DNA of 64,000 bases, taken from assembly GCF_000722875.1 (NCBI RefSeq), contig NZ_JFHR01000006.1, positions 1 to 64,000 of the forward strand. Reading direction: 5' to 3'. Below the pieces are notes generated by a model, which worked only from the letters and a program-made list of their open reading frames with translations, was not told the origin of the DNA and ran no database searches. The stretch is from Sphingobium chlorophenolicum. GTDB lineage: Bacteria > Pseudomonadota > Alphaproteobacteria > Sphingomonadales > Sphingomonadaceae. Positions 25,419 to 54,944 of this stretch are shown in pieces (the stretch's first letter is position 1; every line of letters starts with the position of its first letter). Made by a program: the position numbers and the translations under genes.

Positions 25419-25725
25419 TTTTTCTCCTTGTTTCCAAGGGGTTTAATGGTCGGATGCCTCAAATAGGCAAAATCTAAAATGCAGAATGAAACAGGAATTT
25501 ACGTCTGTTTCCGGCAGCTATTCGTACAAAACCCGTACAGCCATAATGCTGATCGCGCGCTTTCCGCGAATCTGACTGGAGTTACAGGTTCATTCTTGTT
25601 GCGCGCCACAATCCGGGCGGCCACGGTGAGAAATATTATTTCCCAACATTGATCTTTTCATCCACCTCGCGCTAATTTCGCGGGCATGTGCCGTGGCTCT
25701 GCCGTGGCCCAAGCAAGGGATGAAG
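25419..25725. other. Low-GC non-coding stretch downstream of tRNA-Val
   Basis: No gene is seen in these 307 bp. The first 270 bp are visibly poorer in G+C than the rest of the window and contain the short direct repeat CGTACA...CGTACA (around 25525). The position behind a tRNA is typical for integration scars, but no copy of the tRNA 3' end and no integrase gene are found. Confidence 0.5.
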
Positions 25726-27942
25726 ATGTCGCCATATCTGAAAAGCGGCGCGGCTGTCGGCGCGCTGTTGCTTTCCGTCATTTCCGCTCACGCGCAGGAA
25801 AAGCTGACGCTGGAGCGGGTGTTCGCCAGTCCTGACCTGTCGGGATCGCAGCCAAGAGCGTTGAAGCTGTCGCCCGACGGCAAGCTGGTGACGCTGCTCA
25901 AACCCCGTGCCGATGAGAAGGAGCGGCTGGACCTGTGGGCGGTGGACACGTCGACCGGCGCGGAGCGGATGCTGGTCGATTCGAAGAAGACCGGCAGCGG
26001 CGCGGAACTTTCCGAGGCGGAGAAGATGCAGCGGGAACGCGACCGCAGCGTGGCGGGCAATAGCGGCATCGTCAGCTATGACTGGGCGCCGGACGGGAAA
26101 TCCATCTTAGTGCCGGTCGATGGCGACCTGTATCTGGCGGCGCTGGACGGGAAGGTGACGCGGCTCACCGATACGCCCGATGGCGAACTGAACGGCGTGG
26201 TCAGCCCCAAAGGCGGCTTCGTGTCCTTCGTGCGGGGCGGCGATTTCTTCGTCCAGCCGATGGGCGGGACGGCCAAGCAGTTGACGCAGGGTTCCAGCGA
26301 TACGGTGAGTTGGGGCGTCGCCGAATTCGTGGCGCAGGAGGAAATGGACCGGCGGACCGGCTATTGGTGGTCGCCGGACGACAGGCTGATCGCGGTCGCG
26401 CGCGTTGATGAAGGTCCGGTCGGCACCGTCACCCGCACCGCCATCGGCGGGGAGGGGACAAAGGTCTATGCGCAGCGCTATCCTGCGGCGGGGACGCCCA
26501 ATGCGCTGGTCGACCTTTATGTGATGAAGCCGGAGGGCGGAGCGCCTGTGAAGGTCGATCTGGGAACGGAAAGGGATATCTACCTCGCCCGCGTCGACTG
26601 GTCGAAGGACGGCAGGACATTCTATGTCCAGCGCGAGAGCCGGGATCAGAAGATACTGGACCTGCTGGCGGTCGATCCCGCGACAGGCCGGAGCAGGGTG
26701 ATCCTGACCGAGAAGGCGAAAAGCTGGATCAACCTCAGCAACAATTTCACGCCGCTCAAGGACGGCAGTTTCCTATGGTGGTCGGAAAGGACCGGCCATG
26801 GGCATCTATACCATGTGCGGGGCGGCAAGTGGACGGCGCTTACCAGCGGCGATTGGGAAGTGCGCGACGTGGTGGGCGTGGATGAGGGGAGGGGCCTCGT
26901 CTATTTCACCGGCAACCGGGAAACGCCGTTGGAGCAGCAGCTTTATGCCGCGCCGCTCGCCAAGGCGGGACCGCTGAGGCTATTGACGGCGACCGGCTGG
27001 TGGAATGACGCGGTGATGGATGGAGCGGCGAGCCGCATCGTCGTCGCGCGCAGCAATGCGGATCAGCCCAGGCAGGTCTATCTGGCCGACAGCGCGGGGA
27101 AGCAACTGAACTGGCTGTCGGAAAATGCGATCCGGGGCGATCATCCCTATGCGCCTTATCTCGCCAGCCATGCGAAGACGAAGTTCGGCACGATCAAGGC
27201 AGCCGACGGGTCCATCCTTTATACGCGCATCATGATGCCGCCGCTGGAGGCCGGGAAGCGCTATCCGGTCTTCATGCTGCATTATGGGGGGCCGGGCGCG
27301 GGGCGGCAGGTCACGAACTCCTGGGGTTCGCCCATCTACCAATATCTGGTGGATCGGGGTTGGATCGTCTTTGCCGTCGACAATCGCGGCACGCCGGATC
27401 GCGGCAAGGCGTTCGAGGACCAGATCTACCGCGCCATGGGCACGGTCGAGGTGGACGATCAGTTGAAGGGCGTCGAGTGGCTGAAAGCGCAGCCCTATGT
27501 CGATGCCGGTCGGATCGCGACTTATGGCTGGTCCTATGGGGGCTATATGTCGCTGAAGCTGCTGGAGAAGGCGCCGGGGGTTTTCTCGGCAGCGGTGGCG
27601 GGCGCGCCGGTGACGAAGTGGGAATTGTACGACACCCATTATACCGAGCGCTATCTGGGACGGCCGCAGGACAGGCCGAGCGCCTATCCCGCTTCCGGCG
27701 CGGTGGATGAGGCGGTGAAGATCAAAGACCCGCTGCTGCTGATCCACGGCATGTCGGACGACAATGTGGTGTTCGACAACTCCACCGCGCTGGTTGCGAA
27801 GATGCAGGGGGCGGCCGTGCCGTTCGAGATGATGGTCTATCCGGGCCAGACCCATCGCGTCGGCGGGCCAGGGGTCAGCGTGCATCTGTGGCGGACCATC
27901 GAGGATTTCCTGGCGCGGGAGGGGACGGGGCCGGAAAAATAA
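25726..27942 (+). CDS. Dipeptidyl-peptidase IV-type serine peptidase (S9 family)
   Basis: A secreted or periplasmic prolyl oligopeptidase-family enzyme of 738 residues, likely releasing X-Pro dipeptides. A signal peptide (about residues 1-23, ending AHAQ) is followed by the eight-bladed beta-propeller domain. DPP IV-like EE-type glutamates lie in EFVAQEEMDR. The C-terminal alpha/beta hydrolase has Ser603 in GWSYGG, Asp678 in HGMSDDNV and His710 in GQTHR. The ATG at 25726 is chosen because AAGGGA lies at proper distance; the ATG at 25720 is too close. It is a single gene. Confidence 0.93.
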   Translation: MSPYLKSGAAVGALLLSVISAHAQEKLTLERVFASPDLSGSQPRALKLSPDGKLVTLLKPRADEKERLDLWAVDTSTGAERMLVDSKKTGSGAELSEAEKMQRERDRSVAGNSGIVSYDWAPDGKSILVPVDGDLYLAALDGKVTRLTDTPDGELNGVVSPKGGFVSFVRGGDFFVQPMGGTAKQLTQGSSDTVSWGVAEFVAQEEMDRRTGYWWSPDDRLIAVARVDEGPVGTVTRTAIGGEGTKVYAQRYPAAGTPNALVDLYVMKPEGGAPVKVDLGTERDIYLARVDWSKDGRTFYVQRESRDQKILDLLAVDPATGRSRVILTEKAKSWINLSNNFTPLKDGSFLWWSERTGHGHLYHVRGGKWTALTSGDWEVRDVVGVDEGRGLVYFTGNRETPLEQQLYAAPLAKAGPLRLLTATGWWNDAVMDGAASRIVVARSNADQPRQVYLADSAGKQLNWLSENAIRGDHPYAPYLASHAKTKFGTIKAADGSILYTRIMMPPLEAGKRYPVFMLHYGGPGAGRQVTNSWGSPIYQYLVDRGWIVFAVDNRGTPDRGKAFEDQIYRAMGTVEVDDQLKGVEWLKAQPYVDAGRIATYGWSYGGYMSLKLLEKAPGVFSAAVAGAPVTKWELYDTHYTERYLGRPQDRPSAYPASGAVDEAVKIKDPLLLIHGMSDDNVVFDNSTALVAKMQGAAVPFEMMVYPGQTHRVGGPGVSVHLWRTIEDFLAREGTGPEK

Positions 27943-52592: not shown

Positions 52593-52638
52593 CCGAAATG
52601 GTTGAAGCGAGGCACATGACCCGCCTCGACCATTTCGG
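52593..52638. repeat. Family E hairpin after secA
   Basis: CCGAAATGG and CCATTTCGG pair at the base. GTTGAAGCGAGGC and GCCTCGA continue the stem around ACATGACCC. The core GTTGAAGCGAGGCACATGAC is the partner of the element after trxA. It probably serves as the 3' end of the secA transcript, although no T-run follows. Confidence 0.65.
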
Positions 52639-52653: not shown

Positions 52654-53112
52654 CTAGTCGCGGGGCCGGTCGCCATGCAACTTCGCCCATAATTGGGCGG
52701 TTCCGGCCTCCTGCGCCTTGTTCACATATTGCGCTGCGATCAGCCATCCCTTGATCGGCCGCAACGGCAGGACCGTCGTCAGGATCAGCACCGGAACGCC
52801 GACCGCCAGATGCACCCATAATCCCGGCCTGGCCAGTATCTCCAACATGATGATGAACACCACGCCCGGCACGCAGGCGAACAATTGCACGAACACCGCA
52901 GGCCCGTCAGCCGGATCGGCAAAGTCGTAATTCAGCCCGCAAATCTCGCAATGATCGCGCACCGTCAGGAATCCGCGGAAGATATGTCCCTTGCCGCAAC
53001 GCGGGCATCGGCCGAAGGGGCCGGTCTCCATGGGCGACCGCCGGACCCATGGCCCGCCATCTTCCGCCGCCGTAATCCCGATTGAAATCCCGTCTTTATC
53101 ATCCATCGCCAT
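52654..53112 (-). CDS. DUF983 family membrane protein
   Basis: A 152-residue protein with an N-terminal zinc-ribbon-like part (CPRCGKGHIF and CEICGL, four cysteines). Two hydrophobic helices follow (about residues 78-92 and 100-118). The DPADGPAVFVQLF segment and the PLRPIKGWLIAAQY ending are typical of DUF983. The family is common in alphaproteobacteria, often near cytochrome oxidase genes, but no oxidase gene is nearby here. Function unknown. It is convergent with secA. Confidence 0.88.
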   Translation of the reverse strand: MAMDDKDGISIGITAAEDGGPWVRRSPMETGPFGRCPRCGKGHIFRGFLTVRDHCEICGLNYDFADPADGPAVFVQLFACVPGVVFIIMLEILARPGLWVHLAVGVPVLILTTVLPLRPIKGWLIAAQYVNKAQEAGTAQLWAKLHGDRPRD

Positions 53113-53194: not shown

Positions 53195-53345
53195 CCAAAA
53201 GCTTTCCGTTACGGAAAGCAGGGCTATCTACCATCGGATAGATTGCCAAACCGCTTTCCCTCCATTATGGAGGGGCCGATTTGGATGCCCGACAGCAAAC
53301 AAGTCGCGCTCCCGGCTATCCCTTGCCCGGGAGCGCTTTTTTTTT
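53195..53345 (+). ncRNA. Candidate small RNA or switch-like transcript with intrinsic terminator
   Basis: No + strand gene ends nearby: secA stops 740 bp upstream with its own hairpin, and the nearest genes are on minus. The segment has hairpin 1 GCTTTCCG/CGGAAAGC (53201-53219), hairpin 2 CTATC/GATAG (53224-53241), hairpin 3 CCCTCCA/TGGAGGG (53258-53274) and a terminator with nine T. GCTTTCC occurs again at 53253-53259, so GGAAAGC at 53213-53219 can pair either way. Hairpin 3 carries CCTCC and GGAGG sequences able to mimic or bind ribosome-binding sites. The 5' end is not determined, no clear promoter is visible, and I recognise no known family. Confidence 0.6.
53306..53345 (+). terminator. 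Canonical intrinsic terminator of the candidate small RNA
   Basis: GCGCTCCCGG and CCGGGAGCGC form a perfect 10-bp stem followed by nine T residues. There is no T-run on the opposite strand, so it acts on + strand transcription. Confidence 0.9.
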
Positions 53346-53377: not shown

Positions 53378-53578
53378 TCAGGACTCTCTTTCCATCGCGT
53401 CGTGCAGAACCTGATCCGGGCAGGACATCGCCAAGGCCCTGACCTTGTAGCGCAGCGCAAGTTCGCGATGAGCCGCAACTTCCTGCGACGAAGCGCTCCG
53501 TTTGACCGCGGCCTCGGCTTTCGCGGCCTCTTCTTTCGCGCGCCGGAACAGATAACGGGCGTCGGTATCGACAGACAT
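53378..53578 (-). CDS. Small conserved-looking hypothetical protein
   Basis: A 66-residue soluble, charged, probably helical protein (MSVDTDARYLFRRAKEEA at the start, no Cys-rich or membrane part). The single Cys is in AMSCPDQ. GGAGG lies 5 bp before the ATG at 53578; a second ATG at 53581 is too close to it. It is an isolated gene between the small RNA terminator and tRNA-Ser. No family recognised. Strong ribosome-binding site and coding-type composition support it. Confidence 0.6.
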   Translation of the reverse strand: MSVDTDARYLFRRAKEEAAKAEAAVKRSASSQEVAAHRELALRYKVRALAMSCPDQVLHDAMERES

Positions 53579-53668
53579 CATCACCTCCGATGATAAGCGA
53601 TCCGATAGTAGCACGGGAAAATCGTTCCGCTTTAACCGGGATCAATTTTGCCGATTTCATGGAGGGGG

Positions 53669-53906: not shown

Positions 53907-54944
53907 ATGCGTTCTTCGATCCTGTCGCTGTTGCTGGGCCTGGCCGCGATAATGGCGGCCGGCCTGACGGCGGACAGCGTGATGGCGCAGGAAGACCCCG
54001 CCTTCCGCGCCTATCTGGAATCGCTCCGCCCCAGGGCACGGGCGCTGGGAATTCGGGATGCGACCCTGGACAGCGTGTTTCCCGGCCTCACGCCCAATCC
54101 CCGCGTCGTCCAGCTCGACCAGAATCAGCCCGGCGGCGGCGCCTATGCGCCCATCCCCAATTTCGAACCCTATCGCCGCCAGCATGTCGACGCGGCGCGC
54201 ATCGGCCGTGGCCGCACCGCTTATATCGCCAACCGCGCCCGGCTCGCCCGGATCGAGGCGGAAACCGGCGTGCCGGAGGAGATCATGGTCGCCATCTATG
54301 GCCATGAAACCAATTACGGCTCCTATACCGGGGATTTCGACCTGATCCGTTCGCTGGCGACACTCTCCTACGAAGGGCGCCGTCGCGCCCTATTCGAGCC
54401 GGAACTGCTGGCGACGCTCAAGATGCTGGACAATGGCGTCCCGCGCAGCCGTCTGGTCGGCAGTTGGGCGGGGGCTACCGGATATCCGCAATTCCTGCCC
54501 AGCGTCTATCTGCGGCTGGGCAAGGATGGCGACGGGGACGGCCGGGTCGACATCTGGAACAGCGAAGCCGACGCGCTGGCCTCCATCGCCAATTATTTCG
54601 TCCATGCCGGTTGGCGGCGGGGCCAGCCCTGGGGCGTCGCCGTATCGGTGCCCGCCGGTCTCGACCGCGCAAGTATCGCGGCGCGCACCAGGCCCGCCCG
54701 GTGCGACCGCGTGTTCAACCGGCACAGCCGCTGGCTCAGCATGGCCGAATGGCGGCGCATGGGGATCGTCCCGACCGGCGGCGGCTGGCCCGCCGACAGG
54801 GTGCTGGCGACGCTGCTGGAACCCGACGGCCCCGGCAAGACGGCCTATCTGCTCACCAGCAATTACCGGGCGATCCTCGATTATAACTGCTCCAACTTTT
54901 ACGCCCTGTCGGTCGGCCTGCTGGCCGATGCGGTGAAGCAATAG
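53907..54944 (+). CDS. mltB: Lytic murein transglycosylase, MltB family
   Basis: Periplasmic enzyme that cleaves the MurNAc-GlcNAc bond with formation of 1,6-anhydro-MurNAc. The 345-residue protein has a signal peptide (about 1-27, ending VMAQ). The catalytic Glu134 lies in IYGHETNYGSYTG, and the MltB-type GSWAGATGYPQFLPS segment follows. There is no lipobox, so it is soluble, unlike E. coli MltB. Its products could enter the AmgK/MurU recycling route encoded at 38780-40485 after further steps. It is followed by the PBP5-like carboxypeptidase. Confidence 0.92.
   Translation: MRSSILSLLLGLAAIMAAGLTADSVMAQEDPAFRAYLESLRPRARALGIRDATLDSVFPGLTPNPRVVQLDQNQPGGGAYAPIPNFEPYRRQHVDAARIGRGRTAYIANRARLARIEAETGVPEEIMVAIYGHETNYGSYTGDFDLIRSLATLSYEGRRRALFEPELLATLKMLDNGVPRSRLVGSWAGATGYPQFLPSVYLRLGKDGDGDGRVDIWNSEADALASIANYFVHAGWRRGQPWGVAVSVPAGLDRASIAARTRPARCDRVFNRHSRWLSMAEWRRMGIVPTGGGWPADRVLATLLEPDGPGKTAYLLTSNYRAILDYNCSNFYALSVGLLADAVKQ

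Follow-up and report, generated by a model that had tools for sequence, protein, structure and literature searches.

A candidate small RNA family nearly limited to Sphingobium, with a conserved hairpin and its own terminator

Background

The Cuckoo RNAs of Rhodobacter (CcsR1-4) are small two-hairpin RNAs that occur in several copies and carry conserved, C-rich loops of the anti-Shine-Dalgarno (anti-SD) type. Another described system is the suhB/alpha-r8 family (Rfam RF00519), to which, going by its name only, we presume that the SuhB RNA of Sphingopyxis belongs. The alpha-r8 siblings share an anti-SD 10-mer, UUUCCUCCCU, according to the part of the published account drawn on here (PMC12559287), and Sphingopyxis SuhB is presented, in the portion of its report used here, as a 61-nt small RNA (sRNA) that acts with Hfq in carbon catabolite repression (PMC6563040).

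Here, we describe a predicted RNA gene of Sphingobium chlorophenolicum, found in a window of 64,000 nt (the whole stretch of DNA that was analyzed), to which coordinates refer unless a genome is named. Comparison of its copies gives good support to the view that it represents an uncatalogued sRNA family whose general kind is known. Much work has been devoted to Sphingobium species as degraders of pollutants and lignin compounds; in a literature search that covered few subscription journals, no title or abstract reported a Sphingobium sRNA and nothing described this RNA.

Methods

When 100 genomes were first searched at the DNA level, 25 had matches, including the source genome itself, and many of these matches covered only the last 60–70 bases of the locus. 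The 29 copies that these 25 genomes supplied were used to build a covariance model, R1 (69 positions, 19 pairs), and 95 R1 matches a second model, R2. A motif script run over the loci examined returned 205 rows, and in 134 of these the loop is enclosed by a stem of 7 or more pairs; five rows from unrelated organisms were removed, and the remaining 129 were sorted by sequence rules into class I (17), class II (74) and class III (38). Because these rules demand two near-exact motifs plus the stem, some copies with a model match (L102, L279, L287, L014 and L026) fall outside the classes.

Results

A conserved hairpin and terminator at the 3' end of the locus

The locus lies between the stop codon (52564) of a gene that we take, by recognition of its sequence, to be secA (uvrA, below, is named in the same way) and the next long plus-strand gene, which begins at 53907. 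The DUF983 gene (52654–53112), a 78-aa frame without a Pfam match (53378–53614) and the tRNA-Ser that then follows stand between them, all on the minus strand. A sequence-only reading of this region had pointed to an intrinsic terminator where no plus-strand gene ends, which we confirm: the stem GCGCTCCCGG (53306–53315) pairs with CCGGGAGCGC (53327–53336) and is followed by nine T (53337–53345), and only minus-strand genes separate the secA stop from 53907. Immediately before this terminator (53306–53345, plus strand), which has TCCCTTGC at 53319–53326 in its loop region, is a core hairpin (53278–53305, plus strand) with an outer stem GATTTG/CAAGTC, an inner stem TGC/GCA and a CCGACA loop (53289–53294), that is, GAUUUG-GA-UGC-CCGACA-GCA-AA-CAAGUC as RNA. 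The two would make up a small RNA of about 64–68 nt (53278–53345, plus strand), and the covariance match extends over 53274–53342 with E-values of 1.8e-16 (R1) and 4.2e-14 (R2), both from models built with this sequence included. The conserved anti-SD-like stretch, UCCCUUGC, is read in the terminator loop region.

In an alignment of the 17 secA-locus copies, positions 53278–53336 are strongly conserved and the 83 bases upstream drift. The core hairpin is complete in 16/16 orthologs, as is its inner stem, and the terminator stem in 15/16; 99.7% of the cells of the core structure are paired in the orthologs against 98.0% in shuffles (0/500 as high), with slid versions of the structure at 30–49%. 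Among 94 distinct copies, in an alignment that is biased in favor of the model because it was fitted to it, 94.9% of cells are paired against 82.2% in shuffles and 41–49% in slid versions, double changes occur in 17 of the 19 pairs, and 233 double-change cells compare with 59.7 in shuffles, none of 500 of which reached any of the five measures. Double changes across classes affect all ten terminator stem pairs, and the outer stem of the core covaries between classes. An earlier alignment, in which the 29 sequences were aligned independently of the model, points the same way, with 91.7% of cells paired (shuffles, 86.5%), 8 double-change pairs (3.8), 39 double-change cells (9.3) and a covariation score of 0.252 (0.162), each of these four measures being matched by 0/500 shuffles; the number of pair types was unremarkable (60/500 as high). 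Ensemble prediction leaves CCGACA and UAUCCCUU unpaired. Within UCCCUUGC, it has the G paired (unpaired 0.01) and, for the most part, the last C as well (unpaired 0.39), so that only UAUCCCUU would be freely open.

A putative promoter in the region read as a switch

For the region upstream, three ordered hairpins had been proposed, as part of a transcript of about 150 nt, a regulatory RNA able to switch between two mutually exclusive folds by way of GGAAAGC. The repeats behind this proposal are real: GCTTTCC stands at 53201–53207 and 53253–53259, GGAAAGC at 53213–53219, and CCCTCCA (53258–53264) faces TGGAGGG (53268–53274). They are not noise in this strain either, because the upstream 83 nt alone fold better than dinucleotide shuffles (z −3.61; for the 3' 68 nt alone the value is −5.73 and for the whole 153 nt −5.96), and the alternative fold can be formed, at −60.2 kcal/mol against an optimum of −67.4, which makes it 7.2 kcal/mol worse. 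The comparison with relatives tells against the switch. Present in this strain, the three hairpins are complete in only 1, 0 and 0 of 16 orthologs; each of the two competing helices is complete in 1/16, and of the 112 cells of the switch helix 46 are paired. The first palindrome, whose 3' half is CGTTACGGAAAGC (53207–53219, plus strand), is complete in 1/16. Over 17 orthologs, the three hairpins have 55.9% of cells paired against 50.4% in shuffles (1/500 as high), a covariation score equaled by 3/500 shuffles, and slid versions at 37–46%, an excess qualified by the derivation of the structure from one of the compared sequences; lying a little above its controls, it speaks against dismissing these hairpins totally.

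On the minus strand, the first palindrome (53201–53219) with the TTTT after it was listed by a scan as a terminator-like site, of which the surrounding 6-kb region contains 4 against 4.6 in shuffles; in this strain, the transcript of the 78-aa frame may end there.

The class I copies have in common, within the same region, what appear to be promoter boxes. The window has a −35 box TTGCCA (53243–53248, plus strand) and a −10 box TATGGA (53266–53271, plus strand) separated by a 17-nt spacer, and ahead of the RNA the class I alignment is invariant only at AC (53211–53212), ATTG (53242–53245) and TA (53266–53267, 17/17). A TTG lies 35 nt (13 copies) or 36 nt (4 copies) before GATTTG in all 17 copies and is, together with ATT, the most shared triplet of the class I upstream region; by eye, 15/17 copies have an extended −10 (TGN before the box), which the window copy lacks, and most class I promoters are preceded by ACGYTACGG. 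A scan for the sigma-70 consensus did not return this promoter, which emerged only by comparison. Class III has a TTG 34–35 nt before the stem TCC in 27 of the 33 rows examined (the other five of the 38 were left out, four because they lack the TCC anchor and the fifth because it is truncated), and a looser scan of 37 class III rows found TTG common to 31, AAA to 30 and TAT to 29; since AAA and TAT are nearly as shared, TTG is no outlier by conservation in this class. In class II, many of the 74 rows show by eye a TATGATG-like box about 100 nt upstream and an extra inverted repeat in the leader.

Judging from the −10 box, the class I RNA would start at about 53277–53279 and be some 65 nt long, in place of the 150 nt first suggested. 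If the boxes are the promoter and the start is near 53278, hairpins 1 and 2 are wholly upstream of the RNA and hairpin 3 spans the −10 box; indeed, hairpins 1 and 2 precede the −35 box, and the second GCTTTCC copy falls in the −35/−10 spacer. The CCTCC/GGAGG content, read earlier as a sign of action on ribosome-binding sites, is found around the −10 box, upstream of the predicted start; the RNA itself may act on such sites. Conserved −35 and −10 boxes inside the supposed switch, added to its poor conservation and costly fold, make a 150-nt switching RNA extremely improbable. The sequence-only reading is partly supported: a plus-strand RNA gene with its own terminator is upheld by the conserved hairpin, the terminator and the promoter boxes, and the stem conservation by which it could be judged is found in the core hairpin and terminator and not in the upstream hairpins, the conserved object being only the 3' end, approximately 53278–53345. 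In the manner of trans-encoded sRNAs, the gene would have its own promoter in an intergenic region, recognized in silico by boxes at a fixed distance, and it ends in an intrinsic terminator with a U-tail.

Distribution and locus classes

Of the 94 genus genomes, 80 had an R1 match at E ≤ 0.01 (71/83 among good assemblies), 55 of 69 being independent because 25 of the 80 had supplied R1 sequences, and R2 matched 80/94 at E ≤ 0.001, a result dependent on R1. The R1 and R2 searches detected no copy in 14 of the 94 genomes; up to four matches were found in one genome (G008). Across the order, R1 matched 13/296 genomes (8 of the genus and 5 others, E 0.001–0.008); R2 matched 17/397 across the family (8 of the genus, one strong and 8 weak) and 1/289 across the class, namely the source genome. 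These counts suggest an RNA family nearly limited to one genus, Sphingobium, and rarely present elsewhere. Named contigs with a model match mostly carry the name Sphingobium; the rest come from Novosphingobium sp. Chol11 or from MAGs with a broader name. G461 is a MAG in which the core sequence of the match is identical to that of a Sphingobium MAG contig (L160), and it may be misbinned. The weak matches in other genera that were inspected consist partly of lone terminators with a similar loop and partly of sequences without visible likeness; terminators of the former sort, devoid of the CCGACA hairpin, imply that the loop may matter in its own right. Among 164 terminator-like hairpins in the sphingomonad loci examined, 39 have CCCTTG near the loop and 125 do not, and all 39, as read from the locus identifiers, belong to loci chosen for a model match. 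A lone terminator-like hairpin with a TCCCTTGC loop and no CCGACA hairpin was observed in the source genome (G000 C9:13873-13920, L077), and such a lone hairpin is kept in a second genome (G048 C1:2652253-2652275, L307).

The copies occupy three unrelated locus classes with different stems, next to secA (I), uvrA/urcA/lytTR (II) or cstA/xdhC (III). Class I copies are flanked by secA, DUF983 and the 78-aa frame in 16/17 cases, the remaining copy being without DUF983; at least one of the uvrA, urcA-like and lytTR genes accompanies 74/74 class II copies; and class III copies adjoin cstA or xdhC in 32/38, secA in one and a uvrA-type gene in one, with four lacking the test genes. Pfam matches among the neighbors include CstA, XdhC, LytTR, His_kinase, DPBB_1 and SLT_2, and the names UrcA-like and RlpA-like are ones that we presume to apply.

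Among the copies examined, secA-side and cstA-side copies never occur together in any of the 80 genomes. Two more copies, L258 and L291, stand on the secA side, although by sequence L258 was placed in class III, and at L215 a single genome has two model matches separated by about 1.3 kb (G127 C3:579368 and 580638). Two plasmid records carry a copy, both on plasmids typed as conjugative, in Sphingobium sp. EP60837 (L026, G003:C3) and Sphingobium herbicidovorans (L225, G107:C3); a like copy (L014, G035:C82) sits on a contig of unknown kind. Spread by phages or plasmids was considered and rejected; the sole viral contig with a match at E ≤ 0.01 (L198, among eight pattern matches) has its copy within a host cstA/xdhC flank.

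An element that ends in an intrinsic terminator might be the leader or attenuator of a following gene or the mere terminator of a neighboring one, and the class II copies, which stand upstream of a plus-strand urcA-like gene in the same direction, would suit a cis-acting role. Such a co-directional downstream gene is missing in class I and in the one class III copy whose surroundings were read completely: in the window, a minus-strand frame and tRNA-Ser intervene before the plus-strand gene at 53907, and in that class III copy an xdhC gene follows on the other strand, convergent with the RNA. As a terminator of secA, the element would lie beyond the minus-strand DUF983 gene, and secA is followed by an inverted repeat of its own at 52593–52638. 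We therefore hold this family of explanations to be very unlikely. The latter repeat (CCGAAATGGT...ACCATTTCGG) is long, separates the convergent secA and DUF983 genes and possibly forms the transcript ends of both.

Conservation of this region could also reflect a small peptide gene, reading ATG CCC GAC AGC (MPDS...). Ahead of CCCGACAGC, class I has ATG (15) or TTG (2) in 17/17 copies and class II has GTG in 57/74, 72 of the 129 rows are free of stops within 40 codons, and the window frame stays open to 53347. Yet the gap between the two motifs varies, at 21–22 nt in class I, 20–24 in class II and 21–26 in class III (where another 8 rows have a value of 12, presumably a mis-hit of the one-mismatch rule), so that the reading frame is not kept; moreover, 16/74 class II copies have GAG or TAG at the start position, stops are scattered, and the stems covary. 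A peptide gene is scarcely credible on this evidence, and a conserved structure without a kept frame is again what a trans-encoded sRNA presents.

Comparison with known RNA families

At the gathering score, Rfam returned only two tRNAs in the window, which agrees with the earlier statement that no known family was recognizable. Under relaxed conditions (E up to 5), the feature gave only sub-threshold matches, among them ftsZ-DE (0.98), anti-hemB (1.6) and ctRNA_p42d (3.3), with a sub-threshold IR_84 (E 0.35) on the minus strand. At 15 further loci, tRNAs were returned along with matches below threshold, but the RNA itself had none. Membership in suhB/alpha-r8 was rejected: RF00519 has no match here at the gathering score or at E up to 5, UUUCCUCCCU is absent from the 68 nt, and hairpin and terminator are directly adjacent (53305/53306). 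In the source genome (G000), RF00519 has five matches, four over the cut-off and none at this locus (C6:78205-78280, C9:71795-71868, C14:34050-34123, C14:41212-41285 and C37:17854-17933).

Up to nine suhB matches occur in relatives, and most of 20 suhB upstream regions contain elements resembling GATTGC...GCAATC and CGCANTTGC, which sets them apart from the promoter of the Sphingobium RNA. A transcription-factor palindrome, TTTCCGTTACGGAAA, seemed common to class I upstream, some class II downstream and some suhB upstream regions, and was rejected as a regulon marker: forward plus reverse counts against the reversed pattern were 6 vs 14 in G000, with no enrichment, and a second count gave 6 vs 10 (G000), 10 vs 5 (G003) and 6 vs 8 (G050). 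TTCCGTTACGGAAAGC lies about 70–95 nt upstream of a suhB match (G009 C34:48357-48527, L029), and a like sequence occurs upstream of the window RNA; whole-genome counts of such sequences are without enrichment in two of three genomes.

The conserved loops and candidate partners

UCCCUUGC is complementary to GCAAGGGA, a plausible SD sequence. GCAAGGGA stands before an ATG 26 times in the source genome against 6 for the reversed pattern, and 24 times against 8 in G048, counts expected without any RNA because GCAAGGGA is a generic SD-like word. When the sites of these two close genomes (26 and 24, frames of at least 30 aa) were compared, six pairs of downstream frames were shared, two of them short (52 and 62 aa) and probably not genes; the four plausible candidates encode three peptidases (DPP IV-like, M13 and M24) and a protein of 83 aa that has no Pfam match, and we take them as a lead and make no target claim because conserved candidates are too few. 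The DPP IV-like gene (25726–27942) has GCAAGGGA at 25713–25720 and, at 25753–25760, GCTGTCGG, an early-codon 8-mer complementary to the first loop region that codes for part of an apparent signal peptide, which may be why it is conserved. Complements of the loop-1 8-mers fall within −150 to +60 of two of the four genes in G000 and one in G048, and the window contains 24 (both strands, overlapping words counted apart).

These sites could be read as a split seed on one mRNA, with GCAAGGGA at the ribosome-binding site and GCUGUCGG just within the gene, by which a genus-wide regulon of exported peptidases would be repressed and linked to carbon starvation through the cstA-side copies. Three of the four plausible two-genome GCAAGGGA genes are peptidases (DPP IV, M13 and M24), and the DPP IV gene has both loop complements in the order needed for a two-loop contact; we nevertheless regard this elaboration as rather improbable.

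The loops may alternatively be protein contacts and not mRNA seeds, the structured RNA working through a bound protein as a sponge or scaffold. The stems drift but GCCCGACAGC persists in every one of the three classes, among copies found by a script that demanded GCCCGACAGC nearly exactly and so cannot show how often it changes, and this pattern would be expected of a protein site too. CsrB and RsmZ are multi-copy RNAs that work through a bound protein. No partner is known for the present RNA, its second loop is complementary to an SD sequence and the RNA is very short, so a protein-bound role appears unlikely but deserves some weight.

Discussion

We consider it probable, with real room for doubt, that the locus is an independent gene for a trans-acting, multi-copy sRNA that pairs with SD sequences. 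A housekeeping-type promoter (53243–53271) would start transcription near 53278, and transcription would end at the intrinsic terminator (53337–53345), giving an RNA of about 65 nt if the gene is expressed as predicted. This RNA would consist of two hairpins back to back with the conserved loops CCGACA and UAUCCCUU(GC). Most likely it would act in trans, UCCCUUGC pairing with GCAAGGGA-type SD sequences and thereby blocking translation; the CCGACA hairpin may provide a second contact, with mRNA or protein, and the U-tail a possible Hfq site. Matches in 80 of 94 genomes, with up to four in one genome, make the RNA a good candidate for a post-transcriptional regulator in Sphingobium, and a covariance model with strong compensatory evidence, together with two explicit loop motifs, offers simple mutational tests.

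Among known systems, the Cuckoo RNAs, compared here by their general description, are arranged in tandem and have CCUCCUCCC loops, whereas the Sphingobium RNA has other loops and occupies unrelated loci. The Qrr sRNAs of Vibrio, a different lineage, offer a likeness as sibling RNAs with overlapping targets, as far as the section of the account drawn on here describes them (PMC12559287). The closest resemblance in kind is to the suhB/alpha-r8 RNAs (MmgR, SisA-D and SuhB), which, in the parts of the two reports used, are also short, trans-encoded and multi-copy and combine a hairpin and terminator with an anti-SD-type motif (PMC12559287, PMC6563040). In those same parts, the alpha-r8 UUUCCUCCCU is an internal single-stranded stretch, whereas UCCCUUGC of the Sphingobium RNA belongs to the terminator loop region. 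The suhB copies have other upstream elements, and the Sphingobium RNA appears nearly limited to its one genus. Since RF00519 is present as a separate family in the same genome, the Sphingobium RNA is no member of it and may work as such sRNAs do.
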